A stretch of DNA of 64,000 bases from a virus. Within the stretch, counting starts at the first letter, position 1, and each line of letters starts with the position of its first letter. This document shows, one piece after another, positions 34,427 to 64,000 of this stretch. The translations under genes and the position numbers were made by a program. The stretch lies in IMG/VR virus record IMGVR_UViG_3300042503_000838, positions 1 to 64,000 of that record. One strand, 5' to 3'. Under the pieces are notes generated by a model that saw nothing but the letters and a program-made list of their open reading frames with translations, searched no databases and had not been told where the DNA came from.

Positions 34427-34524
34427 CGTTAAAGCCCTTGTAACTGGCTTAAGCAGCTTAGGGCTTTAAGCAGCTGTTTAAAGGCTGTCTAACTGGTCTT
34501 AAATGGGTCTTTTTAAAAGGTCTT

Positions 34525-34548
34525 TAAGAAAGAGGTCTTAAAGAGGTA
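34525..34548 (-). repeat. 24-bp element upstream of ThyX (copy 2)
   Basis: Identical to 29589-29612 on the opposite strand. On the minus strand it runs TACCTCTTTAAGACC toward ThyX. Two further TTTAAGACC-like words follow downstream of it, suggesting a repeated binding motif. Confidence 0.6.
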
Positions 34549-34698
34549 ACAGCTAAAGACCTCTTTTAAAGAAGACTCTTTAAGTACCTCTTTAAATACC
34601 TTTAAAAGGAGTCTAACTACGCTGTCAAGTACCCCTCTCCAAGAGCGTATCTCTTAAAGGGGGGTCTCTTTGCGTATCACCTAGAGGGGCTTTTACCG

Positions 34699-34714
34699 TA
34701 AACCCTTCTGAGAG
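34699..34714. repeat. 16-bp direct repeat (copy 2 of 2)
   Basis: Exact copy of 33527-33542 in the same orientation, about 85 bases downstream of the TerL stop in the minus-strand sense. Confidence 0.6.
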
Positions 34715-34799
34715 GCCCCCAGAAGACTCTCTAAGGCCCCTTTAAGCCGTTTTAGGTGTCAGGGTAGCCAAAGGGCCTTTTAAAGCCTCCTAGAGTCTT

Positions 34800-36557
34800 C
34801 TAGAGGTCCTCTAGCCAATTAGAGGCTCCTGAGGTGGCGTAGAGGGCTTTTTGAAGGTCTTCAAGGGATCTGGCGTATCCAAGAGCATCAATAGAGAGAC
34901 CACCGTCACCTTGGACAAACTTTCGTTCCAGTTCCCACTGTTCTGCTTCCCTAGCAGCGATAGCTTTTTGTTCTGTAACAGCCATCGACTCAGTAAAATA
35001 CTGAACAGCCATTGCTAAGGCGTCTAAGCGGTCGTCATGCCTGATGCTGTTTTTCTCTTTGGTAATCCTTGTCAGCTGGAAAAACAGTTGATATTGGCTT
35101 CTGACTTCGCCTGGGTAGCACTCTGTGGAGGCAATGTCGTTAGTGATTACGTCAGTGTCAACCATGAGCCGGTGTTGGTTAAGGACAGGCTCAAGGGTGT
35201 CGATAATGCGGAGTTCCTTTTGCTTTGTGTGTCGAACCTCTTCAACAGTGCAGGGGTAAATCGTTCCGAGGTATCGCTTAAGAAGCTCGGAGAACATACC
35301 GAGGCCGAGGTTACTTTCAACAAGTATTTGCTTGACCTTGAACTCTTTAGCGATGAGGGCCAGCTTTTTGAGGTTCGGTTCGCTGTAACCACCCCTAAGG
35401 CCACCACTGGAGAGGAGGAACAAATTACCGTTCAAGTAAGCCACTACTGCGTAGCCAAGCTCGTCACTGCCGCGTCCAGAAGGGTCAACGGCCATGACCA
35501 CCCCGGTGTATTCAAGAAATTCATCCCCTATTTGGGCCGGTTTGTAAAACAGATCACCATGAAGACCGACTGAGGGTAGGTCAAGGGCTTTATCGCCGTT
35601 AGCAAGCCACACGACTTTATTAGGGCCGTTTTCACGGTTTAAACGGAACACACAAAGGTCTCTGAGCTTGAGAGGAAACCGCTCCTCATCACTCAGGCTG
35701 ATGTCCAACAGGAACTGCAGGTTGAACGTTGAACGACCGATAGAGAGCTGACGAGCTTCCAGTTCAGCCCAGTCAAAACGTTCAGGGTCTACAGGGTGTC
35801 CAGCGAGGCCTTTATCAGCTTCTAGATCGGCTTGGATCTTGGGTGCTAGACGGTCACCGTAATAGCTTTTAAGCTTTTTACCGGTTGGATACAGAGCAGG
35901 CCAGATCCTTACGTTGTAACCAGAGACCTCAAGCTTTGCGTAAACACTGTCTTGGGTGTGAGGCGTACCAAGAAACACGATCTCACCACCAGGCTTGATC
36001 ACAGAGTCAAACTCTTTAATGGACTCCCGGAGCTTGTCTCGAATCAGTTGAGTTTCACAGGACTGGGGTGTCTCAACGTCGTCAGCAACGATGAGGTCAG
36101 CACGGGAGCCAGTAATTTGACCAAAGATACCGCTGGAACGTACCGAAGGAGACTGGTCTGGTTTTGCGCCGTAAACGTCAAAAGCAACCTTACTAAACCG
36201 TTGCGTGTCGCTAGGGAAAAGGTCTTTGACCATAAACCAGTTGCGTAACAAGTCATGGCAAAACACGGAGAACGCATCAGCACGGTCTTGAGCTGCAGAG
36301 ATCACCAAGACCTTACAGTTTGGATCCCTACGGAGTCTCCAAAGTACGTAACCAGCTGTCAAAAACGACTTACCACAGCCTCGGTAAGCCATGATGATGC
36401 GACGGCTAGGACCGCTTTGTAGAAAGTCAGCTACTTGGTATTGGACCGGTGTTGGGCTAGGAAGCCGTAGGTAATGCCAAAGGTGAGTAGCAAAGATTGG
36501 AAAACTTTCTACCGCTTCCTGAATAATCTGTTCAGTCTGTTTGCTTTGCCGTGCCAT
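34800..36557 (-). CDS. Terminase large subunit, T7 gp19-like
   Basis: The ATPase-nuclease that pumps DNA into the capsid. Walker A is RGCGKSFLTAGYVLW near residue 60 and Walker B ADLIVADDVETPQ. The RNase H-like nuclease domain includes VVMAVDPSGRGSDELGYAVV and the C-terminal SIRHDDRLDALAMAVQYF. At 585 aa it matches T7 gp19 (586 aa). It follows a small NblA-like gene with a 26-base overlap and ends at a long non-coding region. Confidence 0.95.
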   Translation of the reverse strand: MARQSKQTEQIIQEAVESFPIFATHLWHYLRLPSPTPVQYQVADFLQSGPSRRIIMAYRGCGKSFLTAGYVLWRLRRDPNCKVLVISAAQDRADAFSVFCHDLLRNWFMVKDLFPSDTQRFSKVAFDVYGAKPDQSPSVRSSGIFGQITGSRADLIVADDVETPQSCETQLIRDKLRESIKEFDSVIKPGGEIVFLGTPHTQDSVYAKLEVSGYNVRIWPALYPTGKKLKSYYGDRLAPKIQADLEADKGLAGHPVDPERFDWAELEARQLSIGRSTFNLQFLLDISLSDEERFPLKLRDLCVFRLNRENGPNKVVWLANGDKALDLPSVGLHGDLFYKPAQIGDEFLEYTGVVMAVDPSGRGSDELGYAVVAYLNGNLFLLSSGGLRGGYSEPNLKKLALIAKEFKVKQILVESNLGLGMFSELLKRYLGTIYPCTVEEVRHTKQKELRIIDTLEPVLNQHRLMVDTDVITNDIASTECYPGEVRSQYQLFFQLTRITKEKNSIRHDDRLDALAMAVQYFTESMAVTEQKAIAAREAEQWELERKFVQGDGGLSIDALGYARSLEDLQKALYATSGASNWLEDL

Positions 36558-36786
36558 TGCTATGAGCCCACTTAAAAACTTGGCTCAAGTTATTCTGCAG
36601 CAACAGGTTCATCTTTACGTAAGCAATCAAAAGGTCTTGAAGGGTTTCTTTGCTTACGGTAGGTAGGTCACGCTCAATAGCAGCCACACGAAACTGCTGT
36701 TCAAGCGTCAGTTCTACCTTTGGCCAAGGCGGTAGATCTACACCGCTATTGGGTAAGGATTGGTAAATCTCGTCGAATTGATCCAT
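36532..36786 (-). CDS. 84-aa helical protein between HNH and TerL, NblA-like
   Basis: Its core VELTLEQQFRVAAIERDLPT, then SKETLQDLLIAYVKMNLLLQ, resembles the two-helix plan of NblA and related cyanobacterial proteins (xELSLEQQF..., then a Q/L-rich second helix). NblA targets phycobilisomes for Clp degradation. Its position next to TerL would also suit a small terminase, but a better candidate lies at 37159. Similarity was judged by eye from a short motif. Start region overlaps the HNH gene, end overlaps TerL. Confidence 0.5.
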   Translation of the reverse strand: MDQFDEIYQSLPNSGVDLPPWPKVELTLEQQFRVAAIERDLPTVSKETLQDLLIAYVKMNLLLQNNLSQVFKWAHSNGTAKQTD

Positions 36787-37118
36787 TGGAGGATGGTCTG
36801 CTTACGCTCCTCACAGTAGTAAGGTTTGCGCTGATACCACATCATCCAGTGCTCTGAGCCTTTGTTGTGGTTACAACGCTGACAAGCAGGAACTACGTTT
36901 GTTGATACGTCTTGACCTCCACGGGTCTTGGGTTGAACGTGATCAAGAGTGAGTTCTTCGTGATGCTCACCGCAGTAAGCACACCGGTTGCTAAACGCTT
37001 CTTTGATTGACTGTCTCCATTGACGAACGGCTTCTTTACGCTGCAACGCTTGAAGGTTAGCCATAACATCGTCAGGGCTTAAATAGACAAAACCCCCAGC
37101 AGGCGATCTAGTCACCAT
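36738..37118 (-). CDS. HNH endonuclease in the packaging block
   Basis: A 126-aa HNH nuclease with zinc Cys pairs: RCAYCGEHHEELTLDHVQPK, then GGQDVSTNVVPACQRCNHNK. The D-H and N-x-x-P residues fit the family. HNH genes near terminase genes are common in phages, some aiding packaging, others mobile. It separates TerS from the NblA-like gene and TerL, and may be an insertion into the packaging block. Confidence 0.88.
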   Translation of the reverse strand: MVTRSPAGGFVYLSPDDVMANLQALQRKEAVRQWRQSIKEAFSNRCAYCGEHHEELTLDHVQPKTRGGQDVSTNVVPACQRCNHNKGSEHWMMWYQRKPYYCEERKQTILQWINSTRFTNPYPIAV

Positions 37119-37158
37119 ACCGGGGGCTCTGCTTGGTACATATAGGAAGTTTTAGTTC

Positions 37159-37431
37159 CTAAGCACCAATATAACTGCGAACCTTCTTGATATCGACATC
37201 TGGAAGCGCAGAAATCATTTCAGAAATAGCAGAGACATCACCACCGTTAAGAGCAGTAATACCTTGGTCCTTCAGGAACTTAATAGCGTTAGCAAGGTCA
37301 GAAGCTTTTACGTCGTCACGATTCAGCTGATCGATCAGTTTAGTAGCCACCAAGCGGTGAAGACTAAACAGATCATCATCCGAAGCTAGACCTTCAGTCT
37401 TATTTAGAGACTTTTTTGGCGAGGCTGCCAT
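37159..37431 (-). CDS. Probable small terminase subunit (TerS, gp18-like)
   Basis: About 90 aa from the ATG at 37431 (MAASPKKSLNKTEG). The middle LFSLHRLVATKLIDQLNRDD and ASDLANAIKFLKDQGITAL resemble T7-type small terminases (helix, then AIKFLKDxxI). Size fits T7 gp18 (89 aa). It is transcribed toward TerL with the HNH and NblA-like genes between them. Recognised by pattern and context, not by a catalytic motif. Confidence 0.6.
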   Translation of the reverse strand: MAASPKKSLNKTEGLASDDDLFSLHRLVATKLIDQLNRDDVKASDLANAIKFLKDQGITALNGGDVSAISEMISALPDVDIKKVRSYIGA

Positions 37432-37564
37432 AAGCAACACGAAATAGTTTCAACCCCAATTGTACGAGGCTGTTTTGCTTCAACTTAGACACACCAATGA
37501 TTTCAGAAGCTGCAAACGCAGCAAGCCACAAAGCAGCTTGAACTTGAGGATCAGAAAAGTCCAT
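37400..37564 (-). CDS. 54-aa protein with one hydrophobic segment
   Basis: MDFSDPQVQAALWLAAFAAS starts a short protein with one hydrophobic helix (about residues 8-24) and a basic tail ending SLAKKVSK. It fills the space between the endolysin and TerS, overlapping TerS by about 30 bases. A single membrane helix with a basic tail next to an endolysin suits a holin or pinholin, but that is context only. Confidence 0.6.
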   Translation of the reverse strand: MDFSDPQVQAALWLAAFAASEIIGVSKLKQNSLVQLGLKLFRVAYGSLAKKVSK

Positions 37565-37569
37565 AACAT

Positions 37570-38673
37570 TTACCCAGGTTTCTTAATCAAAATAGCCCAG
37601 CCAGATCCTGGGCCTTCTACTAACCACCTTTTGTTCCAGTTCTTTTTGGAATACGCAACACCTTTTCCTCCTGTGTGGTTGATGTAACCACCGTTGACCA
37701 TATTTGCTTCACCGTTTGGATCGTTCTGAATCCAAGCACCTTCTGTGTACCCAATTACTACAGAATAGTGCCCAGAGCCACCAGGATCGCCTACAGGGCC
37801 CTTGTGGAGCCATCCAGCTACTACGGGCCTACCAGCGTCTAACTCGCCTTGTAGAAGCTCCTGGGTGCCTCTCTGAGTGAAGCTCGCATCAAGCCCTAAA
37901 TGCTTAAGAGTTTTGATTTGTGCTTGAGCGTCTGTTGAATCGCCATACCGCTTCCTAATGGCGTTATATTCATCGTCTGTTTTTACCTTGCCGTAAAACT
38001 CAGCCACCATTGCACAGCTACTAGAGAAACACTCTCGATACCCAGTGCCACTTTTGTTGTCGTTTTGGTACTCGTAAGGTACCTTTAGTATTACTTGTTT
38101 TGCTAATACTTTTGATTTATTAGGATTACGACTAACAAGATTAATAAGTTTGTCAGTATAAGCAGGATCTGTTGCGTATCCCTGTTTAGCTAGTTGTTTA
38201 GCTGCTTCTGTTGCACTGGAGGCGTTGTTGACACCTTTATAACTTTTGTAATCTTTGTACCACCGCTCAACGAGGTATGTAACGCACTCTTTAAGAGAAG
38301 AGAAATTAAGAAACCCGTCCCTAACAGAAATAGGTACTCCATTTACATACTCCGTTGTTTCTACGGACTTACCAGAGCCTTTAAGTCCAAAGTAATTATG
38401 AGTCCCCGATGTGTGTTTACCCCAGTTACTTTCCAAGGCCCACTGAGCTGCTACTAGCTCTGGATACTTAGCCCCCGCTTCCCGCGCTAGCTGCTCTACA
38501 CCGTCCCAAGACCCAGTGCTAGGAATGCTGTTCTTAGGACCAGACCGCCACAAATCAGAAAACTTTGCAATGGTCCCTGGAGGAATCTGATCCTGCAGGA
38601 AGTCCAAAGCAAAGTTTTGATGTTCTTGGTTGTTGTAATACTTAACTACGTCACGAAGAGATACGTCTGTCAT
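37570..38673 (-). CDS. Two-domain endolysin: glucosaminidase plus C39-like peptidase
   Basis: In this 367-aa protein residues 50-170 form a GH73-type glucosaminidase (AAQWALESNWGKHTSGTHNY with the catalytic Glu, then FGLKGSGKSVETTEYV). Residues 195-367 look like a C39/papain-like peptidase: YRECFSSSCAMVAEFYG (Cys), GHYSVVIGYTEGAWI (His) and QNDPNGE (Asp/Asn). Together they could cut both glycan and peptide parts of the wall. Adjacent small membrane proteins on both sides suggest a lysis cassette. Confidence 0.85.
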   Translation of the reverse strand: MTDVSLRDVVKYYNNQEHQNFALDFLQDQIPPGTIAKFSDLWRSGPKNSIPSTGSWDGVEQLAREAGAKYPELVAAQWALESNWGKHTSGTHNYFGLKGSGKSVETTEYVNGVPISVRDGFLNFSSLKECVTYLVERWYKDYKSYKGVNNASSATEAAKQLAKQGYATDPAYTDKLINLVSRNPNKSKVLAKQVILKVPYEYQNDNKSGTGYRECFSSSCAMVAEFYGKVKTDDEYNAIRKRYGDSTDAQAQIKTLKHLGLDASFTQRGTQELLQGELDAGRPVVAGWLHKGPVGDPGGSGHYSVVIGYTEGAWIQNDPNGEANMVNGGYINHTGGKGVAYSKKNWNKRWLVEGPGSGWAILIKKPG

Positions 38674-38899: not shown

Positions 38900-38901
38900 A
38901 A

Positions 38902-40809: not shown

Positions 40810-41904
40810 CTACACGCCCTCAAGGGCTGCAACTTTGGCTTCGATGGTTTCGATCTTGGCGATGGCTTCTTGGAGCGCTTTCACCAACCGTGCCTCTGTT
40901 TTGCTCCAACCAGTAACGGTAAGCATGTCGTCGGTACCCTGGGCAACAGCGTCTGGATATACCTGCTCCATCTCCTGCGCAATAAAACCAATTTGATGAC
41001 CACTACCATCTTTGTAATCAAATTCAACTGGCCTTAAGCTGCAGATATTTTGTAGTTGTGAAGGGATGTCGACGATATTTTCTTTCAACCTGGCATCTGA
41101 AAAACTTCCAAATGCGGCGGCGCCACTACCATTCGCGTTAATTTGCCCGCTGCCACCAGTGCCGTTGTTGATGTAGAAACGCTGGAAGATCTGCGCAGTT
41201 GTGGAGTTGTTGTCAAACTTAGATATAGCAATTCCTTCAAGAATGGCATCGCCGGCTCCGCTTCCAGAGAACAAAGCTATTCGCTGTGATGTTTCAGCAG
41301 GTATATTTGCGGAAACAAACAACTTGCCAGTGCTGATATTTGTGCCTCCAATAAGCAGCGCACCGGTGCTAGTCAACCTCATCCGCTCCGTCGGACTAGC
41401 CGCGCCGTCTGCAGTAGTGGAGAACACTAGGCGGCCTGGCATGTCACCAGATGCGCCAGGGGTGCCGTCTACAAAAGCAACAATGCTTGCTGCTTGATCA
41501 AAGCTCGTGCCATTGGCGCCACTAAAAGAAATAGCTCCAAGTGCATCTCCGCTGGCAACAATTGTGTTCGTTCCTTTCGTTGCAGACTTGGACCGGCCTA
41601 GGACGATGCCAGCCGGGTCGCCAGCGACAGAGGAGTATCTTGTAGCAGTGATATAAGAATCCGCTGAAGTGCCAACAATCTGCAACGCACCGTCTAGGAG
41701 GTTGTTAACGCTAGTAGACGTGCCAACTAAGAGCCTGCCACTGGCATCCGTCCGCCATCTCTCTGTACCACCCGTACTAGCGATAATGACATCACTCCCA
41801 AAGCTGATGCCGGTGTTGGTATCTGTACCCTGCAGAGCTGGTGTAGCAGCTGAACCGTCTACACCGGAGATGCCAGATGTACCGTTGATGTAAAGAGGTG
41901 CCAT
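40810..41904 (-). CDS. Tail fibre with C-terminal S74 intramolecular chaperone
   Basis: From the ATG at 41904 (MAPLYINGTSGISGVDGSAA) a 364-aa beta-rich fibre with the shaft unit ERMRLTSTGALLIGGTNIST. The C-terminal 100 residues are a peptidase S74 domain: FSDARLKENIVDIPSQL (Ser and Lys of the self-cleavage site), HQIGFIAQEMEQVYPDAVA and a last helix. S74 domains help trimerise fibres, then cut themselves off. Part of the gene is almost identical to the left-edge fibre. Upstream Met at 41946 would overlap the previous gene. Confidence 0.88.
   Translation of the reverse strand: MAPLYINGTSGISGVDGSAATPALQGTDTNTGISFGSDVIIASTGGTERWRTDASGRLLVGTSTSVNNLLDGALQIVGTSADSYITATRYSSVAGDPAGIVLGRSKSATKGTNTIVASGDALGAISFSGANGTSFDQAASIVAFVDGTPGASGDMPGRLVFSTTADGAASPTERMRLTSTGALLIGGTNISTGKLFVSANIPAETSQRIALFSGSGAGDAILEGIAISKFDNNSTTAQIFQRFYINNGTGGSGQINANGSGAAAFGSFSDARLKENIVDIPSQLQNICSLRPVEFDYKDGSGHQIGFIAQEMEQVYPDAVAQGTDDMLTVTGWSKTEARLVKALQEAIAKIETIEAKVAALEGV
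41263..41393. repeat. Near-identical copy of window bases 1-131
   Basis: 131 bases match positions 1-131 with two differences seen. The match reaches the first base of the window, so its true length is unknown. Upstream of it, in the transcription sense, the two fibre genes are still related but more diverged (for example GACGTGCCAACTAAGAGCCT in both). Confidence 0.9.
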
Positions 41905-42835: not shown

Positions 42836-43069
42836 TTAAGCAAGCCCAAACAATTCTTTAAGTTCTGCCACAGTCAGCCCAGCAGCTTCAAGTTTCTGCT
42901 CGGTGGTTAGCACGGGAGCCGGTGCAGGCTCAGGGGCAGGCTCGGGCATATTACCAGCCTCGACCCACTCCAGATAGGCCTGGTAGTCGGTGTTGGCAGG
43001 GTCGGGTGGGATGAAGGCGTTGTCGGTGAGGCGGAGGATGCAGTCGGAAGTGGTGAGTTGGTAGGTCAT
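42836..43069 (-). CDS. 77-aa protein of fibre block (MTYQLTTSD type)
   Basis: MTYQLTTSDCILRLTDNAFI followed by PPDPANTDYQAYLEWVEAGN and a Pro/Glu/Ala-rich stretch. The form xFIPxDPANxDxQxYxxW is seen next to tail fibre genes in many cyanophages. GC-rich compared with neighbours. Perhaps a tail fibre assembly helper. Confidence 0.65.
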   Translation of the reverse strand: MTYQLTTSDCILRLTDNAFIPPDPANTDYQAYLEWVEAGNMPEPAPEPAPAPVLTTEQKLEAAGLTVAELKELFGLA

Positions 43070-43072
43070 GGG

Positions 43073-44137
43073 TTACAGCTCGGCGGAGGCGGCAAAAAAG
43101 AAAGCATTGGTATTCGTGAAACTGGCGTAAAACCCAAACGAACCACTTTGTAAATCCGTAAATGTTCCAAGTGTTAGCGTTAGCGAAACTGTTGCCGACG
43201 CACGTTTTGTGACCTTAAACGGTACATGGGCGTAGCTACCGCCGTTAGCAACAGTTTGATTCACGCCGGAATTAGTTTCGTAATATCTCTGACACAACGC
43301 CAGCTCCTGCCCGTAGCTCCTGCGCTCAAAAGGAGTGGCTACTGTGCCCGCTTCGAGTTGCACGCCGGTGATGTAGAAGGTGGCGCCGTTGGTTGCCAAC
43401 AGTGAAGTAACACCACTGAAAGCACCTCGTCCACCTCCACTAGCACCCCATGCATTAGTGGACTGATGCCAGTCAGAGCCAGATCCAATGTTAAATGTCA
43501 GGCGGAGTCCAGTAGTGTTGTCAGTCGCCCATGTCCCAGTGATATCTCCTGGGATAACAATCGTCTTGTACTCCCACGTGTTTGCGGCAGCAATAGAGTA
43601 AGGGGCCGCATAAGACCTTGAGGCAGCATTATTAGCAAGGCCAACGCCAAAAGATCCAGTCAGGGAACTCCTAACCCAGAATGACAACGTAACTGTCTGC
43701 GCAGAAGCCGTGCCCCAACCAAAATCGGCTACATTAAATCCTTCAATGTATTGACTAAAAAACTTGGAGTCTGCTGCTGAAGGGGCGGAGCTTGTTGTAG
43801 TGGTAATAAGCGTTGAATTTGTAAATAGAGCGGGGGATAGCGCTGATCTCTGTGCTGTGAATGCTGATGAACCACCTATGTTCTGAGCAAAAAACCTATC
43901 AAGAAAGTAGAGACTACCATTCCCTACACCTACGGTTACACTCGCCCCAGCGTTCCTTTGATCAATCCGCATATCACCGTTGATAATGCGATTACGGGCA
44001 CCAGCAAGCGGCCCGCCGTTGATGCTGCTAACTGTCGGAGCAATTGGCGACGCTAACTTTTCTGTTGTTACTGCACCATTATTGATGTTGTTGGTATTGA
44101 CATCAAAAGAGCTAGTTGTATTACCAATGTATGGCAT
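43073..44137 (-). CDS. Tail fibre/receptor-binding-like protein
   Basis: A 354-aa protein with NRIINGDMRIDQRNAGASVT and LYFLDRFFAQN, a start common to phage and bacterial carbohydrate-binding-like proteins, followed by a beta-sandwich region (AQTVTLSFWVRSSLTGSFGV) and YITGVQLEAGTVATPFERRS with QELALCQRYYETN. The N-terminus VTTEKLASPIAPTV resembles fibre shaft repeats. Probably recognises a surface sugar. Confidence 0.75.
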   Translation of the reverse strand: MPYIGNTTSSFDVNTNNINNGAVTTEKLASPIAPTVSSINGGPLAGARNRIINGDMRIDQRNAGASVTVGVGNGSLYFLDRFFAQNIGGSSAFTAQRSALSPALFTNSTLITTTTSSAPSAADSKFFSQYIEGFNVADFGWGTASAQTVTLSFWVRSSLTGSFGVGLANNAASRSYAAPYSIAAANTWEYKTIVIPGDITGTWATDNTTGLRLTFNIGSGSDWHQSTNAWGASGGGRGAFSGVTSLLATNGATFYITGVQLEAGTVATPFERRSYGQELALCQRYYETNSGVNQTVANGGSYAHVPFKVTKRASATVSLTLTLGTFTDLQSGSFGFYASFTNTNAFFFAASAEL

Positions 44138-46397: not shown

Positions 46398-46814
46398 ATG
46401 ACCCACGGTATTAGAAAAGGCCTTGAAGACATTGCGTGGGAACTGAAAGGGATTCGAAATATCCTTGCGTCCCTATGGCACAGTCGCTATTCCACTGGAG
46501 AAACAGACATGTTGAATCCAGAGGCATACGCTGATGAATACATTTCTACAGAGGAGTGTGCAAGGCGCCTAAACGTATCTGATCAAACGATTAGGAACTG
46601 GATTACCGTTGGCAAGAAAAATGTGGATAAAGGGTGGGAAGAGGGCATTCATTATATAAACATCGCTCCTGGCGACATGAAAAAACCGGTAATCCGGATT
46701 CCTTGGAACCATCTGATCCAGGCGTTTGCAAAGAATAAAAAAATCGACATTTTGGATCTACGCAAAGACGCACGCTTGTACCAGATCCCTGAACGCTTTA
46801 AGGAGTTTCAGTGA
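46398..46814 (+). CDS. Helix-turn-helix protein, first gene of plus-strand operon
   Basis: The 138-aa protein has a MerR/excisionase-like helix-turn-helix in YISTEECARRLNVSDQTIRN at about residues 50-70. It is followed by a basic, aromatic C-terminal half (PVIRIPWNHLIQAFAKNKK). Likely DNA-binding. As first gene of the operon and divergent from a minus-strand gene, it may regulate this switch region. Its end overlaps the next ATG. Confidence 0.65.
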   Translation: MTHGIRKGLEDIAWELKGIRNILASLWHSRYSTGETDMLNPEAYADEYISTEECARRLNVSDQTIRNWITVGKKNVDKGWEEGIHYINIAPGDMKKPVIRIPWNHLIQAFAKNKKIDILDLRKDARLYQIPERFKEFQ

Positions 46815-48242: not shown

Positions 48243-48275
48243 GTTCCGTATACTGAAGAACGATTGCTGACCATC

Positions 48276-50889: not shown

Positions 50890-50924
50890 GGGAGCAACTA
50901 TTGTTACTCCCAATCATACACAAT

Positions 50925-51359: not shown

Positions 51360-54025
51360 TAGAGACCCTTAAACATGGATGTGAACTCACCGAGAATCTG
51401 ACTACCTGTTTTGGACTTGTAGTCTTCATCTTCGTCGTCATCTAATCCCAGTTTAAAATAACTATCCATATCGGTATCTCGCGTTGTCTTGGTTCCTTCT
51501 TCAGATGAGGAATCTTCACCAAAGAAGCTTTCAATAGTTCCAAGGGAGGCGAAGGGATCGCTCATGTCTAATCCTTGTATCTTGAGTGCTGAATCAGAGC
51601 CTGCTTTTGTTAGTAACGTTTGCTCAGAGCGGTCTAGATCAGGGAAAAACTTTTCGTAAAATTCATCCTCTGTGCCCTGGTAACCAGCAGACTGAAATGT
51701 TTTATACAGCTCGGTAGATGGTTTTGCCTGCTGATCTTTATAGTCTTCAGGGCGCTCAATGTAAGTCAAGCCAAGTATTTCTTGTGTCGGTTTCTTGCGC
51801 TTTTCATTTAAGTACTTTAGTTCTTCCCTAATTTTTTGTGCGGATCCAGTGCGCAGTGTCTCCGTTACGTACTCTTTAAGCTCATCAATTGTGCCCTTGA
51901 AGTCGGTAATACCGTATCGTTGAAGAACCTCATCCCAAGACTCTTTGTCTGCTGGATCCAGGCCCTTCAGTAATTCGTCGGTAAACTCTTCTGGGGTCAC
52001 AAACTGACCAAAAACAGTGCCTTGTTTCAAAGCTTCTTCTTTAAGAGCCGGAAGAATTTTTGAGTAGATCTCATCTTGTACCTTGCCAGCGTTGAGAATG
52101 TCTTCTGCCCCGTCGTAACCACGTCCCTGGCCCTTGACTTGGAAATGCATACGTGCAAAGGCGTCCTTGTTGTTAAGGTCCACGCCAAAACGATATGCCT
52201 GCTGCGCCCAGTACGCATCGCCCTTCTTGGCAGACTCCCAGTCAGAGGCTACGGTTGCCGCTTGTTCTGTGTAGTTGGAAGTCCTTGCCTTGTCTCCCGT
52301 TGGATTGAAGTAAAAGTCTGAGTTGAAGTAACGATCAGAAGATGCCTTTAACTGGTCCAAGTACATCTGCGCTCTTAAGTTTGCAACTTGATTTGTTGCG
52401 TTTAAGATGTCCTGCGTCTGGAATGGGTTTTGCTCTTCTTGACGCACGTCCAAGTATTCAACAAACTCGTCCATTGAACGCGAGGTGTTGAACCGCGGCG
52501 TCAAGTATTTATCAATAAAATTACGAGCAAAATCTGCTTGTATCTTTACGTTTTCCTTGGCTTCTCCTGCTGTGTAACCAAGCTCCACATCTTGTTCATA
52601 TTTTTTCTTAAGTGTTTCGTCGAACCATTGTTGCCAGTTGTACGTAACGTTGTTCTTTACGCCTGTGATATTTTGCAGGCTTTTCTCCAGGGACTCCTCG
52701 GCTTTGCCTCCTGACATAAAAGAAAGCATGCCACCAACCCCAGAGTCGCCCATGATGCTGTTAGTAAGCTCCTTGTTGATGTCCATGACCTCACTAAAGC
52801 CACCAAATCCTCCCAAAAGACTGAGCATTTGCTCTTTGCCTTTTGCTTTCTTCATTTCCTCAATGGTTGTTTTTAATGCGTCTTGCGTCAACGCCCCAAA
52901 CCGCTTGACATCAACTGTTGCTTTTTCGCCAACAGCTTGATTGATTGCGTCCTCTAATTCCGTTACGCCATAACCAGCATTTACGTTGTATTGCAAACTT
53001 ACTTGCTTGTCTTCTGGACGCTCAGACAACCTAAATAACGCTGTAAATTCATCGGGCTTATCTGGGTTTAGATATTTTTCTTTTGCCTGTTGCGCCCAAT
53101 ATGGATCTCCGTTTTTAGCCTTCTCCCACTCAGTTGCAATTGCTGGAATATTAAGCAGGCGTTGAGTTTGTGAAGTTGTGTCCACGCCCAATTGAAGATT
53201 TCTTACCTGCTGTAAATCCGCATCCGTAGGTTTCTTTTCTGTATACGCAAGAGCAGCAGATGTTTGCTCTGGAGCATTACCCCTTAATCCCGATGCTTTG
53301 CCTTGAGAAGTGTAGTGCTGCAGGTAATAACCATTCTCGCCATATCGTTGCGTGATATCAATATCGTCATTTGCTACTGCAGCTTGCCAGGCAGCTGCAA
53401 CTGCTGGGTTTTGTTGCTTGTAGTACTTAGGGTCAAATTCACCATATTGGGGCTTGGCTCCAAGTGCTGGATTCCATTGTTGTAGTTTTTCTATTTGATA
53501 AAAAGCTTTGTAGTAATTCTCCAGGTTATTTTTTGTTGTTGCATCTAAATCTAACTTGCGAATTTGATCACGCATTTGAACGTAGTCACCGCCTCTTGTT
53601 GTGCTAGCCAAGGAGACAACAGAGTTGTACGCATTATTTTTTTTCTGAGCGGCTGCGTTAAATTCAGCACCTTGTTGATTTAAAGATTGGTTGTATTGGT
53701 TGGTTTGACGAGCTCCCTCCTGCGCTTGTTTTAATGCATTCTCCGCCTCCCAAGGCTGCGGATTAGGTATGCCTGCTGCATTAAGAGCATTGATTACATC
53801 CCAATATCCGCCATCTACATTAACTGTTGCCGTTTTTTTTACCTGGACAGGCACCATGGCGTAGTAAGTCTGTCCTTTGATTGTGTATGGTGTTTGACTT
53901 CTCTCATATGTCCAAACATCTCTTGTAATGGAAACAGTATTTGTCATGGGCCGATTAGTTTGATAATCGGCTTTTTCAGGTACTAAATCCCACTTTTTTC
54001 TGGAGGGGTCATACGAGAGTCCCAT
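51359..54025 (-). CDS. 888-aa repeat protein, probable virion protein
   Basis: Contains FDPKYYKQQNPAVAAAWQAA with RYGENGYYLQHYTSQGKASG, a form repeated in cyanobacterial and cyanophage proteins (FDxxYYxxxNPDVAxAW...HYxxxG). Two further units, WEKAKNGDPYWAQQAKEKYL and WESAKKGDAYWAQQAYRFGV, repeat one module. The middle is helical and charged, the C-terminus acidic (SEEGTKTTRD...DDDEDEDYK). No enzyme motif. The large size and place near lysozyme and HNH genes suggest a structural or ejected protein. Confidence 0.6.
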   Translation of the reverse strand: MGLSYDPSRKKWDLVPEKADYQTNRPMTNTVSITRDVWTYERSQTPYTIKGQTYYAMVPVQVKKTATVNVDGGYWDVINALNAAGIPNPQPWEAENALKQAQEGARQTNQYNQSLNQQGAEFNAAAQKKNNAYNSVVSLASTTRGGDYVQMRDQIRKLDLDATTKNNLENYYKAFYQIEKLQQWNPALGAKPQYGEFDPKYYKQQNPAVAAAWQAAVANDDIDITQRYGENGYYLQHYTSQGKASGLRGNAPEQTSAALAYTEKKPTDADLQQVRNLQLGVDTTSQTQRLLNIPAIATEWEKAKNGDPYWAQQAKEKYLNPDKPDEFTALFRLSERPEDKQVSLQYNVNAGYGVTELEDAINQAVGEKATVDVKRFGALTQDALKTTIEEMKKAKGKEQMLSLLGGFGGFSEVMDINKELTNSIMGDSGVGGMLSFMSGGKAEESLEKSLQNITGVKNNVTYNWQQWFDETLKKKYEQDVELGYTAGEAKENVKIQADFARNFIDKYLTPRFNTSRSMDEFVEYLDVRQEEQNPFQTQDILNATNQVANLRAQMYLDQLKASSDRYFNSDFYFNPTGDKARTSNYTEQAATVASDWESAKKGDAYWAQQAYRFGVDLNNKDAFARMHFQVKGQGRGYDGAEDILNAGKVQDEIYSKILPALKEEALKQGTVFGQFVTPEEFTDELLKGLDPADKESWDEVLQRYGITDFKGTIDELKEYVTETLRTGSAQKIREELKYLNEKRKKPTQEILGLTYIERPEDYKDQQAKPSTELYKTFQSAGYQGTEDEFYEKFFPDLDRSEQTLLTKAGSDSALKIQGLDMSDPFASLGTIESFFGEDSSSEEGTKTTRDTDMDSYFKLGLDDDEDEDYKSKTGSQILGEFTSMFKGL

Positions 54026-54026
54026 G

Positions 54027-54389
54027 TCAAACAGCTGCCGATAACGTGTCTACCTGATAAACAAAAACATCAATAGGTTCTTGTTTCATCCAGGAGTTGA
54101 TTCTATCCATCTTAGCTTGTGTAAAAAATTCTTGTTTTTCAAACCACTCATTCACCTTGGTACTAGCCTTGGAAGTATTGCACCTGCGACATGCAGGCAC
54201 AAGATTATTTCTATTGCTAGACCCAGACTTAAACCTTGGGATTATGTGGTCCAGGGAAGTGGCAACTTCTTCGCAATAAGCACATCTTGAATCCCAGGCA
54301 TCGTATATAGATTGGCGGTAACGTTTTTTTGCTAGCTTCGGAGTTAATTCAATGAGCAGGGCGAGGGGTTCCTGTTCGCAATTGAACAT
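54027..54389 (-). CDS. HNH endonuclease
   Basis: A 120-aa HNH nuclease: RCAYCEEVATSLDHIIPRFK, then SSNRNNLVPACRRCNTSKAS. Zinc Cys pairs and DH...N residues are intact. It is similar in plan to the one at 36.7-37.1 kb but not close in sequence. Possibly a homing-type nuclease at the boundary between blocks. Confidence 0.88.
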   Translation of the reverse strand: MFNCEQEPLALLIELTPKLAKKRYRQSIYDAWDSRCAYCEEVATSLDHIIPRFKSGSSNRNNLVPACRRCNTSKASTKVNEWFEKQEFFTQAKMDRINSWMKQEPIDVFVYQVDTLSAAV

Positions 54390-54777: not shown

Positions 54778-55011
54778 TTATTGTGGCAACAAATCTTGTG
54801 AGTATGCCTCCCAGGCGAGTCCTACGGCTTCCATTGAAGACAGTTCGGTTATTTGGTAAGGCAAATAAACAACATCACCTGTCTTGTAAACGGTAGGGGA
54901 CCCTTCGTAAGACACTTCACTAAATCCATACTGGCGACGATCTAGCTCAGCTTGCGAAGCTGGTTTAGTTGAGTCAACAACGTCGCCAAAGTTAATGTTT
55001 GTATCAGTCAT
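54778..55011 (-). CDS. 77-aa hypothetical protein
   Basis: MTDTNINFGDVVDSTKPASQ, then QYGFSEVSYEGSPTVYKTGD, ending SQDLLPQ. Start overlaps the GT-methyltransferase stop by 8 bases. Not recognised. Its stop overlaps the terminator hairpin. Confidence 0.6.
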   Translation of the reverse strand: MTDTNINFGDVVDSTKPASQAELDRRQYGFSEVSYEGSPTVYKTGDVVYLPYQITELSSMEAVGLAWEAYSQDLLPQ

Positions 55012-56617
55012 CTTTTTTGTATATCAAAAGATTTTGAGTGAACCAACCCATGTGATACCCGTTCTTAATGTATTCTAAAAGAGTGTTTTCTATGTTGAAC
55101 TCCCTCGTCAAGCCTGTGCTGCTAAAAAGATTATCCCAATAGTTTTTTGTTTGGCAATTAATGTGACCGACGCCTCCCTGTCCCGGTGAAGCCGCTGTCC
55201 ATATCAATATGCCGCCAGGTTCCAAAAAGCTTGTCATTGCTTCTACAATTTGCTGATTGCTACTACTGTCAATATGCTCTGCTACCTCCATGCAAAGAAC
55301 AACATCACCAGTATCTTTTACATCAAACAAACTTTGACAAATAAGATTTGGACTTCCATTAACACGAGTGTCCGAGTCATAACCTATTGCATTGACCCCA
55401 AGATCCTGGAAGCAATTGACGTAAGTACCTGGACCGCAGCCAATATCCAAAAGTTTTGTTGGGCGTAGATTATCGGCAATCCATTTTGTTAAACGCTTGG
55501 CAAAAGGAAGTTCTTCATAGTGTAAATGCGTGTAGTTAATCACATCTGTTTCACGTAACTGGTACCAACCTTTCTTGTTAAGGTTGTTGATGTCTTTGAA
55601 TATTTTGTCGTACTTTTTGCCACATGTCTCTAAGCTGTAGCGCATCCTTGCAGTGTTAGCGACTGTAACTCTATTAAGATTTCCTGCATTATGGATAGCA
55701 TCAATCCAGTCTTGTAATGTGTGACAACGAAAACCAGTGACGCCATCGACAATGGTTTCAGTAAATGCTCCATAATCAACAGCAATTAGCGGAGTTCCAC
55801 ACATCATTGCCTCTACTCCGCTACCTGCAAATGGCTCGGTAAAGTTTGTCGGCATCAATGCAGCTCTTGCGTTGCGTAAAAAATCAGAACGTGCTTTGCC
55901 AGTAATAGGTCCACGATATTCAATATTAGGGTGCTCCCAGGGAGTTGGATCACCTTGCCCATGAAGGACAATAGGCCAAGGACTGTAGTTTGCAATTTCT
56001 TTAATTGTATCCATCCCCTTGGCTGAACAAATACGTCCCAAGAAAGCAAGGTATTTTCCTGGTTTGTAGGATGGTTGCCACTCATCTAGGTCAAAGTAGT
56101 TAGGAATAACCCATTCGTAGTTCTTGCCTTGACGTTTTTCTTGACCTTGATGGTAGTGCATCCAAGCGTAGCTTTCAAAGATTCGAAAACTATTTGGCAT
56201 CAATGTAGGATAACCAATGCCTGTTTCTACGTGTTGATGCAAAGGAAACTTGTCCATCAATACTTGATGGGCATGTCCAAACGGATGGCAAATTATGTCT
56301 TCTTTTTGTAAACGTTTACGCAGCTCGACGATAAGACGTTCTTCAAATAGTTGGTGTCCCTTGCTTCCTACTGTGGCGTCATCACCATGAAAGTCAGTAT
56401 CCTTACGGCTTCCATAAAGCTCGCTAAATTCATCCAAGGTCAGGATGGGTACGTGCTCTGTGGCGCCTGCTTCACTTCCTTCATTGCTGTATTCAATTAC
56501 TTCATAACCTTGCGCCTGCATCATACGAGGAAAACGTAAAGCCTTACCTGTAAAAGCACAATGAGAAAATGCAGCTGTTGCTTGGGTATGGAAAATACCA
56601 ACCAAGTGAAGACGCAT
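55004..56617 (-). CDS. Glycosyltransferase (GT4-type) fused to a SAM methyltransferase
   Basis: In this 537-aa protein the N-terminal two thirds are a GT-B-type glycosyltransferase: IGYPTLMPNSFRIFES and FLGRICSAKGMDTIKEIANY (donor loop), then TEPFAGSGVEAMMCGTPLIA with the EX7E motif and FTETIVDGVTGF. From about residue 385 a class I methyltransferase starts, LLDIGCGPGTYVNCF (SAM-binding) and DVVLCMEVAEHID. It may build or cap a methylated sugar on a host surface, DNA or virion part. Phage-borne fusions of this kind are unusual. Acceptor unknown. Confidence 0.85.
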   Translation of the reverse strand: MRLHLVGIFHTQATAAFSHCAFTGKALRFPRMMQAQGYEVIEYSNEGSEAGATEHVPILTLDEFSELYGSRKDTDFHGDDATVGSKGHQLFEERLIVELRKRLQKEDIICHPFGHAHQVLMDKFPLHQHVETGIGYPTLMPNSFRIFESYAWMHYHQGQEKRQGKNYEWVIPNYFDLDEWQPSYKPGKYLAFLGRICSAKGMDTIKEIANYSPWPIVLHGQGDPTPWEHPNIEYRGPITGKARSDFLRNARAALMPTNFTEPFAGSGVEAMMCGTPLIAVDYGAFTETIVDGVTGFRCHTLQDWIDAIHNAGNLNRVTVANTARMRYSLETCGKKYDKIFKDINNLNKKGWYQLRETDVINYTHLHYEELPFAKRLTKWIADNLRPTKLLDIGCGPGTYVNCFQDLGVNAIGYDSDTRVNGSPNLICQSLFDVKDTGDVVLCMEVAEHIDSSSNQQIVEAMTSFLEPGGILIWTAASPGQGGVGHINCQTKNYWDNLFSSTGLTREFNIENTLLEYIKNGYHMGWFTQNLLIYKKDD

Positions 56618-56681
56618 AGGTTGCTAATCGGTCAACCAAGTATAGCGTTAGACCTTAAAGCTGCATTTGGTTGTTTTGTGC

Positions 56682-56957
56682 TTAGCTATCCACCGCGGCA
56701 GCGTATTCGGGCTGCGCCTTGAGCCAGACGTAGGCGATGGCTAGGGGATTGGTGCCGGGCTGCAGTTCAGCGGTGGGCGCCGTGAAGGTGCGGTCATAGA
56801 CCGGCTGAGCATTGGCGTGCCGTGCCTCAGCGCTGGCGTAATGCGACACCTGCATGAGCATATGCTCCTTGTCACACCGCAGCAGGGTGATGCAGGCGTA
56901 GGTATCGGGCAGCGGGATGCCGATGTTGGTTTCGTTGAGCGAAATAGACAGGGCCAT
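56682..56957 (-). CDS. 91-aa hypothetical protein in GC-rich fibre block
   Basis: MALSISLNETNIGIPLPDTY and ACITLLRCDKEHMLMQVSHY, ending IAYVWLKAQPEYAAAVDS. GC-rich codon use, as in the next two genes. Ends with helical segments. Possibly a fibre chaperone. Its stop-side gap (56618-56681) holds no gene. Confidence 0.6.
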   Translation of the reverse strand: MALSISLNETNIGIPLPDTYACITLLRCDKEHMLMQVSHYASAEARHANAQPVYDRTFTAPTAELQPGTNPLAIAYVWLKAQPEYAAAVDS

Positions 56958-58048
56958 TAGAAGGTCATCTCAGTGGTGTCGATGCGGCAGACCCACCTGA
57001 TCGTGGTGGCCGCTGCACCAGTGACGGTGATGGTGATGCAGCCGATGGCGGTATTTGCTGTGACGGCGACAACCCACGTAGCAGCGCCAGCATCGAAATG
57101 CGTCATGGTGACCGTAGGCGTGCCGACCATCACTGTGGATGCGGCGTTAGCACCACGCTTGATGGCGCCGTTGATGGTCCAGCGGGCTGTGTTGCCGCCG
57201 CCGGTCACGCCAGCAATCACTTCACCAGAGAAGCTGTAGGCGCTGTTATTGGGCAGGGTGACTTGGTTGCTGAAGTTGGCTGCGCTGCTGTTGCTGGCGA
57301 GGACTGTGGCGGTGGCGTCGGTAGTTTGACGGCCAAGGATTAGCAAGGCAGTTTGACTGGCGCCTGAAATCGATGCGACTGGCGAATTGCACGCGGGCAA
57401 TACGTGATTGCCAATGATACTTCGTGTGGTACCGCGGCGTCCACCGGCAATAAAGGAATAAGCTGAGTTTGCTGTATTGGACTCTCCGCCAGCAACAGTA
57501 GCACTTGAGTCACTGGCGGTGTTGCTAACACCTCCTCCAACGACCGAATAGCCGCCACTTGCAATGTTGTTTTGCCCCCCACACACCGTTGCGTGGCCGG
57601 CGGTGGCGCCGTTGGTTTGGCCGCCACCTACGAAGCCGTGACCGCTATTGGCAAAATTGTCTCTGCCTGTAGCAACTCCAGAGTAATCGCCAGAAGCGAC
57701 ATTTAAAAAACCTCCTCCAACGGTGCCCCAGCTGCCACTAGCGCGGTTTCGCTCACCGCCGCCAATGGTTGACGATGGTGCGCTTGCTACGTGGTCGGAA
57801 CTGTTGCGTGACTTCTGCCAATCCGTGGCCCCAGCGCCCCGCTTATTGCCACCCGCCACCGTCCCATCCGGCACCTGCGCCAGCGTTGCGCCTGTGCCCT
57901 TGGCGACCAAGGCGATGTCCGCGTTGGTTGCGCTGATCGTGCCACCGTTGATCTCGGTGACTGGTGTGGTGCTGTTGACGCCATCACTGTCTAGCCGCGC
58001 CAGTAGACGCAGCACCGCAGATGGCCAGCCGATAGGATTCAGGTTCAT
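56957..58048 (-). CDS. Trimeric beta-roll tail fibre (YadA-like repeats)
   Basis: The 363-aa protein has a repeat region at about residues 95-210 of GGGxxNxAxGxxSxVxGG units (GYSVVGGGVSNTASDSSATV), like the left-handed roll of YadA/Hep_Hag head repeats. The N-terminus NLNPIGWPSAVLRLLARLDS and beta-sandwich C-terminus (VTVTGAAATTIRWVCRIDTT) complete the fibre. GC content is far above neighbouring genes. It is probably acquired and involved in adsorption. Confidence 0.75.
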   Translation of the reverse strand: MNLNPIGWPSAVLRLLARLDSDGVNSTTPVTEINGGTISATNADIALVAKGTGATLAQVPDGTVAGGNKRGAGATDWQKSRNSSDHVASAPSSTIGGGERNRASGSWGTVGGGFLNVASGDYSGVATGRDNFANSGHGFVGGGQTNGATAGHATVCGGQNNIASGGYSVVGGGVSNTASDSSATVAGGESNTANSAYSFIAGGRRGTTRSIIGNHVLPACNSPVASISGASQTALLILGRQTTDATATVLASNSSAANFSNQVTLPNNSAYSFSGEVIAGVTGGGNTARWTINGAIKRGANAASTVMVGTPTVTMTHFDAGAATWVVAVTANTAIGCITITVTGAAATTIRWVCRIDTTEMTF

Positions 58049-58440
58049 GTCAGGTCACCCCCGAACGCTGCAACCCGCACCGTGCCGGTCGTCGGTGCAA
58101 CCGTGATCGTGGCGCCCAGCTTCCATGTCGCGCTTGGTAGCACCAGATCGGTGTAGGCCGTCACCAGGCGGTAGCCCTTGGTGGTGTTGCTACCCGTCAA
58201 AGCGCTAATGGTTACTTGATCGAACAGGTCCCACTGCGTCCCATCGAACAAAAACAGGTTGACCAGTGCCGCCACCGTGGTCGCGGTGCCTTGGACGTTC
58301 ACGCTAAGGATCCGAGTGCCGGCAGATGCGCCAACAAGCAGGTCGCTGATCGTGCCGGTGCCATCGGTGGCGGTGTTCGCTGTGCTCAGCGACAGGCGCC
58401 CGATGCGCGGTGTTGAGATAAAGGCGGGTGATGCAGCCAT
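58045..58440 (-). CDS. Beta-rich virion protein
   Basis: 131 aa, MAASPAFISTPRIGRLSLST, then GTRILSVNVQGTATTVAALV and VTISALTGSNTTKGYRLVTA, all beta-rich. Overlaps the next fibre gene by 4 bases (ATGA), high GC. Likely a fibre or baseplate component. Not recognised. Confidence 0.6.
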   Translation of the reverse strand: MAASPAFISTPRIGRLSLSTANTATDGTGTISDLLVGASAGTRILSVNVQGTATTVAALVNLFLFDGTQWDLFDQVTISALTGSNTTKGYRLVTAYTDLVLPSATWKLGATITVAPTTGTVRVAAFGGDLT

Positions 58441-58443
58441 AAT

Positions 58444-59376
58444 TTAAATACAAGTAATGTTAAGGAACAGGTTGGCACCAGCTGAACTACCGCCGCCACC
58501 TGCTGGACCTGTGGCGCCAATAGGCCCTGTTGCACCAGTAACACCAACACCAGTAGCACCAGTAGCCCCTGTAATGCCTATTCCCGTAGCACCTGTCGCG
58601 CCGGTAACACCTACACCTGTGGCACCAATAGGTCCAGTAGCCCCCGTAATACCTACTCCTGTTGCGCCAGTAGGACCATCAATACCTGTTGCACCTGTAA
58701 TACCTACACCTGTGGCACCTTGTGAACCCGTGACACCAGTAGCGCCGGTAACACCTACTCCTGTAGCGCCCTGTAGACCTGTGGCGCCAGTAATACCTAT
58801 TCCCGTTGCACCAGTAATGCCTACACCTGTGGCACCTTGTGGACCTGTTGCACCTGTAATGCCTATTCCCGTTGCACCAGTAATGCCTACACCTGTGGCA
58901 CCTGTCGCACCAGTAATACCGACGCCCGTAGCACCAGCGGGACCTGTGACCCCGGTTGGCCCACCAGGATCCCCTTGCGGACCAGTGGCGCCAATCATTG
59001 TATAAACTTTTGCTAGACCACCTATGTCATATACAACCCAATCAGCATTTTCATTGAAAACTAAAGATTCCCCCTGTGCCAGGGAACCTTTCCATAGGGT
59101 AGTAAAACGCGTTCCATCCGTATGGTTAATTGTTAACGTGTTACTTCCTGTAGTTACATCGTTTTTAATAAAAACAGTTCTTACATTTCTTTGTGTTGTG
59201 TTTGCGGAAGGAGGAGGGACAATAGTTGTAGTGGTTGCTAAAGCAATAACGGAATCAAGGCGGCCAGCGGTAACAACCCCGTTATTGTTATCTGCATAAG
59301 ACGCATGCACTTCAATGTTACCAGCTGCACTGGTAATCACCTGCAAAGCATCAAATGTAGAAGTCAGCAGTAACAC
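58444..59376 (-). CDS. Collagen-like fibre protein
   Basis: The N-terminal 135 residues form a beta domain ending [20 protein letters not shown]. About 160 residues of collagen-type G-x-y repeats follow, mostly [12 protein letters not shown] and GPIGATG, then a short [18 protein letters not shown] end. Such repeats form triple helices in phage fibres. The near-exact DNA repeats allow length change by slippage. Flanked by other fibre and virion genes. Confidence 0.88.
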
Positions 59377-59415
59377 AGATGCGTGGATGCAATACTTTTA
59401 TTTTAATTCAATGTA

Positions 59416-61050: not shown

Positions 61051-61053
61051 GCG

Positions 61054-61839: not shown

Positions 61840-61910
61840 TTACCTACTCCTTCAGCCTTGAAAATCCTTGTTAACAGAATTCTAGCTCAAGCAACTTTTA
61901 AGTGCTACAG

Positions 61911-62932: not shown

Positions 62933-62942
62933 AATGATGCTC

Positions 62943-63059
62943 TTATTCTCCTACCCAGTTTGAACTTGCTTTGAGACCAGGAATGAATACGGTTTGCAGC
63001 GAAAGGGCCGTAGCCAAATAGGTCAAAGTACGTTTAACAAACTTAGGGCAGAGAATCAT
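62943..63059 (-). CDS. 38-aa peptide with hydrophobic segment
   Basis: MILCPKFVKRTLTYLATALS, then LQTVFIPGLKASSNWVGE. One hydrophobic stretch after a basic start, like a small membrane peptide. Ends 10 bases before the lysozyme start, so could be a holin-like neighbour. No ribosome binding site clear. 63060-63144 holds no gene. Confidence 0.35.
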   Translation of the reverse strand: MILCPKFVKRTLTYLATALSLQTVFIPGLKASSNWVGE

Positions 63060-63144
63060 GGTTTTAAAGCAACAACACTGGCCCCCGTAGATCAAAGATC
63101 TATGTCCAGTTGGCTGGGCTTACATGCCTTGCAATGCCAGAGAA

Positions 63145-63969
63145 TTACTTTTGAGTAGAAAAGATCGAGTCTTTAAACATTTCAAGAAGCTTTTGGGCTT
63201 CTGCACCCTTGGGATCAAACTTCGGAAGCTCAGACCCTACAGGCTGTAGGCCCGTTGCACCAGCATAAGAAGCACTTGGCATATCAGTGGGCATGCCGAG
63301 GGGAGCACTCTGTAAAGTTTGGCCTTGATTAAACCCTGCATAAGGTGCTGCAGAAGCACCTGCAAAAGAATTTGCAGGTAAAGGTGAGAGACCTAAACCT
63401 TGGGCAACCTTTGCAACACCATACGATTCTGGGGAAACGGGAGGTGTCGTACCAAGGGGGGAGCTGTTATCAAATGGGAAGTTCATGGGAGAGCCCATTT
63501 GACCCACCCCAAGAGTGCGTTGGATTGCATCGTAACCGGCTTGGCCAGGCTTAACTTTTGCTGCAAGTTTGGGATTGGCTTTTGCCCACATCTGCATCCC
63601 CATATCTTCTGCAGATTGCTCAGCGGCAGAACCAGGGCCAGCAGCAACTGCTTCTTTGCGAGCCTTTTCGTAACGCTGAAGTTCTGGGTCTTGTGCGGTC
63701 AGCTGGGCAACGCGAGATGCTTCTTGCTGATACGCACGCTCTGCAGCAGGATTAATGCCTGCACTAGGAATTGGCTTCTGGGCACTGCCGGGAACGTAGC
63801 GACCATACATGCCAGTTTTCTGCGCTTGCTGAGAAGGCTCCGTATAAGGAAGGCGCCCTTTTAACAGCTGACCACCTGCGTAACGCATTTCATTCCCCAA
63901 GCCTGCAAGCAATGGGTTTGTCAAAGGTGCAGGAAAAAACCGATTAAGTAGATCAGACATTAACGCCAA
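63145..63969 (-). CDS. Pro/Gly/Ala-rich probable virion protein
   Basis: 274 aa, starts SDLLNRFFPAPLTNPLLAGL. Middle helical (ASRVAQLTAQDPELQRYEKA), second half Pro/Gly/Ala/Ser-rich (PSASYAGATGLQPVGSELPK), ends KDSIFSTQK. No enzyme motif. Structural or ejection protein by context. It is the right-most complete gene of the window. Confidence 0.55.
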   Translation of the reverse strand: MALMSDLLNRFFPAPLTNPLLAGLGNEMRYAGGQLLKGRLPYTEPSQQAQKTGMYGRYVPGSAQKPIPSAGINPAAERAYQQEASRVAQLTAQDPELQRYEKARKEAVAAGPGSAAEQSAEDMGMQMWAKANPKLAAKVKPGQAGYDAIQRTLGVGQMGSPMNFPFDNSSPLGTTPPVSPESYGVAKVAQGLGLSPLPANSFAGASAAPYAGFNQGQTLQSAPLGMPTDMPSASYAGATGLQPVGSELPKFDPKGAEAQKLLEMFKDSIFSTQK

Positions 63970-64000
63970 ACCTCATGTAAATAAATACGGGTGCCTACGG

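Follow-up and report, generated by a model that had tools for sequence, protein, structure and literature searches.

A 126-kb cyanophage record that is very probably an assembly chimera of two genomes joined at a common tail-fibre tip

The window analysed here, the first 64,000 nucleotides of IMG/VR record IMGVR_UViG_3300042503_000838, is part of a 125,842-bp sequence classed as linear. How does a T7-like gene set come to lie in so long a molecule? A preliminary description put typical relatives near 40-47 kb, and the marine cyanopodovirus genomes in the accessible text of PMC4646655 do span 42.3-47.7 kb. That description saw a second phage block and no RNA polymerase gene, and offered two answers: a new enlarged lineage relying on host transcription, or two genomes joined in assembly. 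We therefore have to ask whether the record is one genome or two. The remaining 62 kb beyond the window was also analysed, as stretches.

We conclude that the record is very probably a chimera made in assembly from two cyanophage genomes, A and B, of one metagenome, each complete or nearly so. Phage A is most likely a P-RSP2-like, T7-like cyanopodovirus of about 41.3 kb and phage B an S-EIV1-like phage of about 84.9 kb, the two being unrelated. Chimeras are a documented fault, usually making up less than 5% of contigs of at least 10 kb in the simulated viromes covered by the available part of PMC5610896. The chimeric contigs described there likewise join two genomes; as far as that part goes, the present contig differs in having two nearly complete partners and in starting and ending within the common segment.

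Two sets of relatives on one contig

In an ORF-by-ORF comparison, contig 1-40.2 kb tracks P-RSP2 (HQ332139, 42,257 bp) from 14.4 to 41.7 kb and then from 0.8 to 7.1 kb. Domain matches bear out the T7-like gene set described for 1-41 kb, running from a tail-fibre N-domain through an M23 internal protein, nozzle, tail tube, Gp10A-like capsid, head-tail connector, ribonucleotide reductase, helicase-primase and DNA polymerase A to a T7-type terminase. The structural, replication and packaging genes stand in P-RSP2 order, which would place phage A in the P-RSP2 clade. Its features are as follows (R is the 549-bp segment at the joint):

1-41262, minus strand: phage A, one full turn, from collinearity with HQ332139; putative circle of 41,262 bp
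1-1755, minus strand: N-terminal part of the tail fibre, truncated by the contig start within R (PF03906; 57% to the P-RSP2 fibre, aa 1-229)
11307-14402: nozzle (tail tubular B) protein (best match P-RSP2, 75.8%)
15107-16519, minus strand: major capsid protein (PF21703; 85% to P-RSP2)
17379-18986, minus strand: head-tail connector, or portal (PF12236; 86% to P-RSP2)
23388-23717, minus strand: DUF3310, phage A copy (domain match; 65% to P-RSP2 over aa 1-48)
24808-26697, minus strand: DNA polymerase A (PF00476)
33788-34426: ThyX (matches S-EIV1 only)
34800-36557, minus strand: terminase large subunit, T7 type (PF22530; 85% to P-RSP2)
36738-37118, minus strand: HNH endonuclease, phage A copy (domain match; 59% to P-RSP2)
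37400-37564: small ORF (matches S-EIV1 only)
37570-38673: endolysin, glucosaminidase plus C39 peptidase (matches S-EIV1 only; two antisense ORFs inside)

Best ORF matches across 1-40.2 kb are to P-RSP2, the exceptions being ThyX, the endolysin with its two antisense ORFs, and the small ORF. For the nozzle protein, the other 2434 matching records all fall below 60%. Amino-acid identity to P-RSP2 is 85% for the capsid, 86% for the portal, 85% for the terminase and 65% for the DNA polymerase. The two phages also differ: the GC content of phage A averages about 47% over the first 20 windows counted, against the 34% given for P-RSP2 in the accessible text of PMC4646655, its fibre module is shorter, and its ThyX and endolysin genes have matches in S-EIV1 only. 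We assign these two genes and the small ORF to phage A because two contigs of sample 3300044695 (G026 and G022) carry 14,297-41,366 at 100% identity without the rest.

Beyond the joint the relatives change. From 44.5 to 124 kb the contig tracks S-EIV1 (KJ410740, 79,178 bp, circular) around its map, and every matched ORF has S-EIV1 as its best match; 72028-72474, the fibre-like 104761-106023 and 109926-110558 match it out of place. S-EIV1 gene order round a circular map of about 80 kb places phage B in that lineage, and the closure of B would follow from a 127-bp overlap described below.

41367-64000 and on to contig 125,842, minus strand, with 46398-48863 and a few other genes on the plus strand: phage B; putative circle of 84,898 bp
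49422-49916, plus strand: DUF3310, phage B copy (domain match; matches S-EIV1 74234-74638)
50230-50913, minus strand: phage lysozyme (PF00959; 54% to the S-EIV1 gene annotated lysozyme)
51359-54025, minus strand: 888-aa protein (62.5% to S-EIV1)
54027-54389, minus strand: HNH endonuclease, phage B copy (domain match; 63% to the S-EIV1 gene annotated HNH nuclease)
115,371-117,992 of the contig: primase (best match S-EIV1, 57.3%)

At E values up to 1e-5 the 888-aa protein matches just one of 50,697 phage records, S-EIV1, at 62.5%; identity is 87% for the capsid-like protein and 71% for the DNA polymerase. Compared with S-EIV1, phage B is larger (an estimated 84.9 kb or so against 79,178 bp), has an extra cassette at 55.0-59.4 kb, and lacks the intein of the S-EIV1 terminase.

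The second block is thus foreign and holds second gene copies, as had been proposed, but it is not some 18 kb long: it spans about 41.4 kb to 125,842. The paired copies reported for HNH (36738-37118 and 54027-54389), DUF3310 (23388-23717 and 49422-49916) and the RGQGK motif (about 40627 and 50942) are all there, one copy per phage; the motif is present in S-EIV1 and absent from P-RSP2. The second lysozyme needs correcting. Phage_lysozyme does match 50230-50913, but the lytic gene found in the first block, among the ORFs tested, is of a different kind, with glucosaminidase and C39 domains. Each phage also has its own capsid and terminase.

A comparison of k-mer use, suggested in the same description, separates A from B. 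Tetranucleotide correlation is 0.69 within A blocks, 0.60 within B blocks and 0.49 between them. One of 2000 label permutations reached this gap (8 A against 15 B blocks of 3-5 kb, setting aside 40-46 kb, everything past 120 kb and some remainders), a figure to be read with the fact that neighbouring blocks are not independent.

Two further observations concern the contig as a whole. The regions 30.0-30.6 kb and 94.2-95.0 kb have a segment in common; a large structured RNA there was considered and rejected, neither place having an Rfam match, and over its full length the record has a single Rfam match at gathering score, a tRNA at contig 92,621-92,694. A concatemer of one 42-kb genome (125,842 is about 3 x 42 kb) was likewise set aside when self-comparison gave short matches only.

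The joint in the tail-fibre gene

Where does one set of relatives give way to the other? The junction had been placed near 46 kb. We find instead a single switch along the contig, inside a fibre gene at 40.8-41.4 kb, in sequence common to both partners:

40818-41366, minus strand: segment R, 549 bp, the joint; C-terminal tail-fibre tip (Peptidase_S74; tail-fibre PHROGs; overlaps with the contig ends)
40810-41946, minus strand: fibre ORF across the joint, its C-terminal half being R (S74 at aa 283-334; tail-fibre PHROGs)

The Peptidase_S74 in R is an intramolecular chaperone domain. Matches of the fibre genes at 40.8-42.8 kb to P-RSP2 and S-EIV1 are weak and mixed.

Self-comparison and base-level comparison lead both contig ends back to R. 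Bases 1-104 are identical to 41,263-41,366, and divergence starts at base 105. The last 127 bases, 125,716-125,842, are identical to 40,818-40,944; upstream of this overlap the next base differs, two further bases agree, and similarity is then lost (88 mismatches in 130). Within the contig R is doubled at its ends only, by these 104 and 127 bp. The whole of R in phage A is seen in G022, and its middle is presumably present in phage B as well. Opened out at R, the contig yields one circle of 41,262 bp and another of 84,898 bp; both are of normal size beside the 42,257 bp of P-RSP2 and the 79,178 bp of S-EIV1.

An exact 127-bp terminal repeat is the trace of de Bruijn assembly with k = 127 on a circular genome, and 127 is, we presume, the largest k-mer of the assembler used here. 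Since R, at 549 bp, is longer than these overlaps, k-mers of that size could not resolve it. Common to A and B, R would become a single node of the assembly graph, entered by two paths and left by two; an assembler taking the wrong exit would produce the order found here: the end of R, A, R, B, the start of R.

Two points at the joint speak against a chimera. At the contig start the overlap with R is 104 bp rather than 127, so the 127-bp overlap is found at one end only. Furthermore, a contig called G023 matches the record exactly for 611 bp that begin on the A side (40784) and end on the B side (41394), so that a third phage has the junction letters in this order too.

Relatives at the joint and rival readings

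If A and B are separate phages, each should be met without the other. Phage A is: besides the two contigs of sample 3300044695, a contig of sample 3300034102 carries A 14,113-19,481 at 100% identity. G022 stops precisely at the branch point, base 41,366, after which the continuations differ. Because it ends inside R, it does not itself show the exit taken by A, and we found no contig running from the A fibre through R back into A.

Close relatives of each phage cross the joint without the partner genome. In G018 and G016, two A relatives of 39.4 and 34.1 kb respectively, no more than about 4 kb separates A 1.1-1.2 kb from A 40.0-40.1 kb, and matches to B of at least 150 bp are limited to an endolysin (191 bp) and a small gene (261 bp). 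In the B relative G011 (81.3 kb), B 123.8 kb and B 44.9 kb lie at most about 5 kb apart, and the sole A match of that length is a ThyX gene. G029, the nearest B relative tested (83,981 bp, capsid 99%), runs from B 45 kb through a fibre module of about 3 kb to B 123.8 kb, with 63,155 bp aligned round the whole map, and its sole A match of at least 150 bp is 153 bp long. Gene order in G029 is fibre, S-EIV1-type lysozyme, B endolysin. It ends in an exact 127-bp direct repeat, the same overlap length as at the end of the present contig; a terminal repeat of 20-399 bp is absent from G011, G016 and G018.

Both capsid proteins occur together in one of 22 records tested, the present one (the others being, of 160 loci found, the longest relatives of B, 15 in number, and of A, 6 in number). 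As many records are fragments, this is support rather than proof. The longest public contig among 80 of the 185 relatives of the A capsid is 39,396 bp, and among 80 of the at least 598 relatives of the B capsid 85,905 bp. Patterns laid over the edges of R, in counts from which the present record may be excluded, occur in two contigs for the right edge (G023, G024), in no other contig for the B-side left edge, a further point against the chimera, and in six for the A-side left edge (G022, G023, G024, G029, G030, G031). The last five of these have no match to the A capsid, in a run without a positive record whose query had matched in the earlier 22-record test, so that this result counts for little by itself; among the same five, the B capsid is found in G029 only.

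The lack of an RNA polymerase had been reported, and it holds over the whole record: neither the Pfam RNA_pol profile PF00940 nor tblastn with P-SSP7 gp1 found one, the latter giving nothing better than E 7.9. The profile had no match in nine records (the present one, P-RSP2, S-EIV1, two A relatives and four B relatives); it matched P-SSP7, the positive control, at 227.7 bits, and 14 further control genomes gave no match. The absence looks real, yet the two nearest isolates, P-RSP2 and S-EIV1, lack the gene equally. In the accessible text we found no published statement to that effect for P-RSP2; the claim comes from the profile search. Autographiviridae are defined by a single-subunit RNA polymerase of their own. 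Phage A has no detectable one, and GenBank nonetheless places P-RSP2 in that family. Phage A is putatively transcribed by the host polymerase.

What, then, of a single molecule? A stable lineage of T7-like phages, enlarged by an S-EIV1-like genome and transcribed by the host, would fit the missing polymerase, but that gene is equally absent from P-RSP2 and S-EIV1, and we consider such a lineage scarcely credible: none of the 21 other records tested joins A and B or has both capsids, and the capsid and terminase genes are each present in two versions, one for each phage. The other possibility is a real cointegrate. Were A and B to have recombined at R in a co-infected cell into one 126-kb molecule, the contig would read just as it does, A-R-B with its ends in R, and 549 bp of identity is sufficient for homologous recombination. 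Locally this account gives the same reading as a chimera. Against it stand only its lower plausibility, the finding of A on its own at 100% identity in samples 3300044695 and 3300034102, and the relatives of A and of B that cross the joint without the other. At 126 kb the molecule would also be about 3 and 1.5 times the genomes of its nearest relatives, and packaging limits phage genome size. We give it very little credence. The wider idea that fibre tips serve as recombination sites in co-infected cells, yielding real A-B cointegrates with the tip as a mobile host-range cassette, is likewise highly improbable.

It is also possible that the join is artificial but that part of 41.4-44.5 kb comes from the fibre module of A and not from B. 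Between its A 40.1 kb and A 1.2 kb positions, the A relative G016 carries a homologue of 42836-43096, and 41906-42571 matches the P-RSP2 fibre region weakly (25%). A homologue of the small gene lies in the B part too, however, at 123,999-124,249, so that such modules occur in both, and the exact 104-bp overlap closes A without the 41.4-44.5 kb stretch. We regard this as unlikely. The other proposal of the preliminary description, two genomes joined in assembly, agrees with the common segment, the end overlaps, the relatives crossing the joint and the genome sizes; that the assembler rather than nature made the join is the most likely reading.

Taken as one genome, the record misleads: it would inflate the size range of T7-like cyanophages and suggest a hybrid lineage. 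Cut at the joint, it gives one relative of P-RSP2 and one of S-EIV1. P-RSP2 is a lone outlier in the accessible parts of two published comparisons (PMC4646655, PMC9860041).

An identical fibre tip in unrelated phages

The joint also holds a real biological feature. R is present in G023 without a mismatch in 549 bases and in G024 with 8. The genes of G023 include a tape-measure protein and a major tail protein, marking it as a long-tailed phage. Because R has several different neighbours on each side, several phage types must carry it even if some of the pairings are wrong. No record of the phage collection matches R (blastn, E 1e-5). Sorted by backbone, 71 fibre loci gave 60 without a label, 8 B-like and 3 A-like; the labels are unreliable, since locus L172 is B-like via one cassette though its record has the tail genes of a long-tailed phage, and we draw nothing from them.

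The fibre tip is identical base for base in unrelated cyanophages, which is a known kind of exchange. Host-recognition modules common to unrelated phages have been described, as the available text of PMC10579305 reports for Alteromonas phages, where a tail-fibre module is likewise common to distantly related tailed phages; here, compared with that text, it is the fibre tip that is common, at 549 of 549 bases, in contigs of different phage types. An identical tip in unrelated cyanophages points to recent exchange of the part that recognizes the host.

Terminase and tRNA gene of phage B

The large terminase subunit of Synechococcus phage S-EIV1 (KJ410740; 14080-16620 of locus L007) carries an intein splicing domain at residues 202-526. 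In the S-EIV1-like phage B, the terminase (contig 72,474-74,000) is uninterrupted at this place. Phage B has one tRNA gene (contig 92,621-92,694); judged from the loop in the alignment, its anticodon reads like UAA.

Segments shared with a long-tailed phage

Two regions are considered here:
Window 29940-30596 (phage A) and contig 94,206-95,117 (phage B): segment common to both phages
Window 55004-59376: phage B cassette lacking S-EIV1 matches in an ORF-by-ORF comparison

The phage A and phage B copies of the common segment are 78-85% identical in DNA. The segment is also found in G023, a metagenome contig from a long-tailed phage, at 88.6% identity to the phage A copy and 77-91% to that of phage B. 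Two of its ORFs had no Pfam match and two others no match in PHROGs.

The cassette opens with a glycosyltransferase-methyltransferase fusion, followed by ORFs of 363 and 131 amino acids that matched nothing in Pfam or PHROG. Within it, 56680-58501 is 90.5-92.6% identical to G023 across two stretches. The 310-residue ORF at 58444-59376, which is without a Pfam match, contains internal repeats (58498-58956) that are 66-75% alike.

Fibre accessory genes and the fibre tip

One small gene is present twice in the phage B part:
Window 42836-43096: first copy
Contig 123,999-124,249: second copy

The copies share 79% DNA identity, and beside each lies a copy of a fibre-like gene, both matching phrog_4492. 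The small gene also occurs, in single copy, in G016, a relative of phage A. This arrangement suggests that the fibre accessory genes move as one module.

The fibre tip with its S74 chaperone (window 40818-41366) is carried by phages A and B and by metagenome contigs G023 and G024 (fibre loci L172 and L174). Compared base by base, the tip is identical in long-tailed G023 at 549 of 549 positions and in G024 at 541 of 549. Such sequence identity points to recent exchange of this host-recognition tip among unrelated cyanophages.
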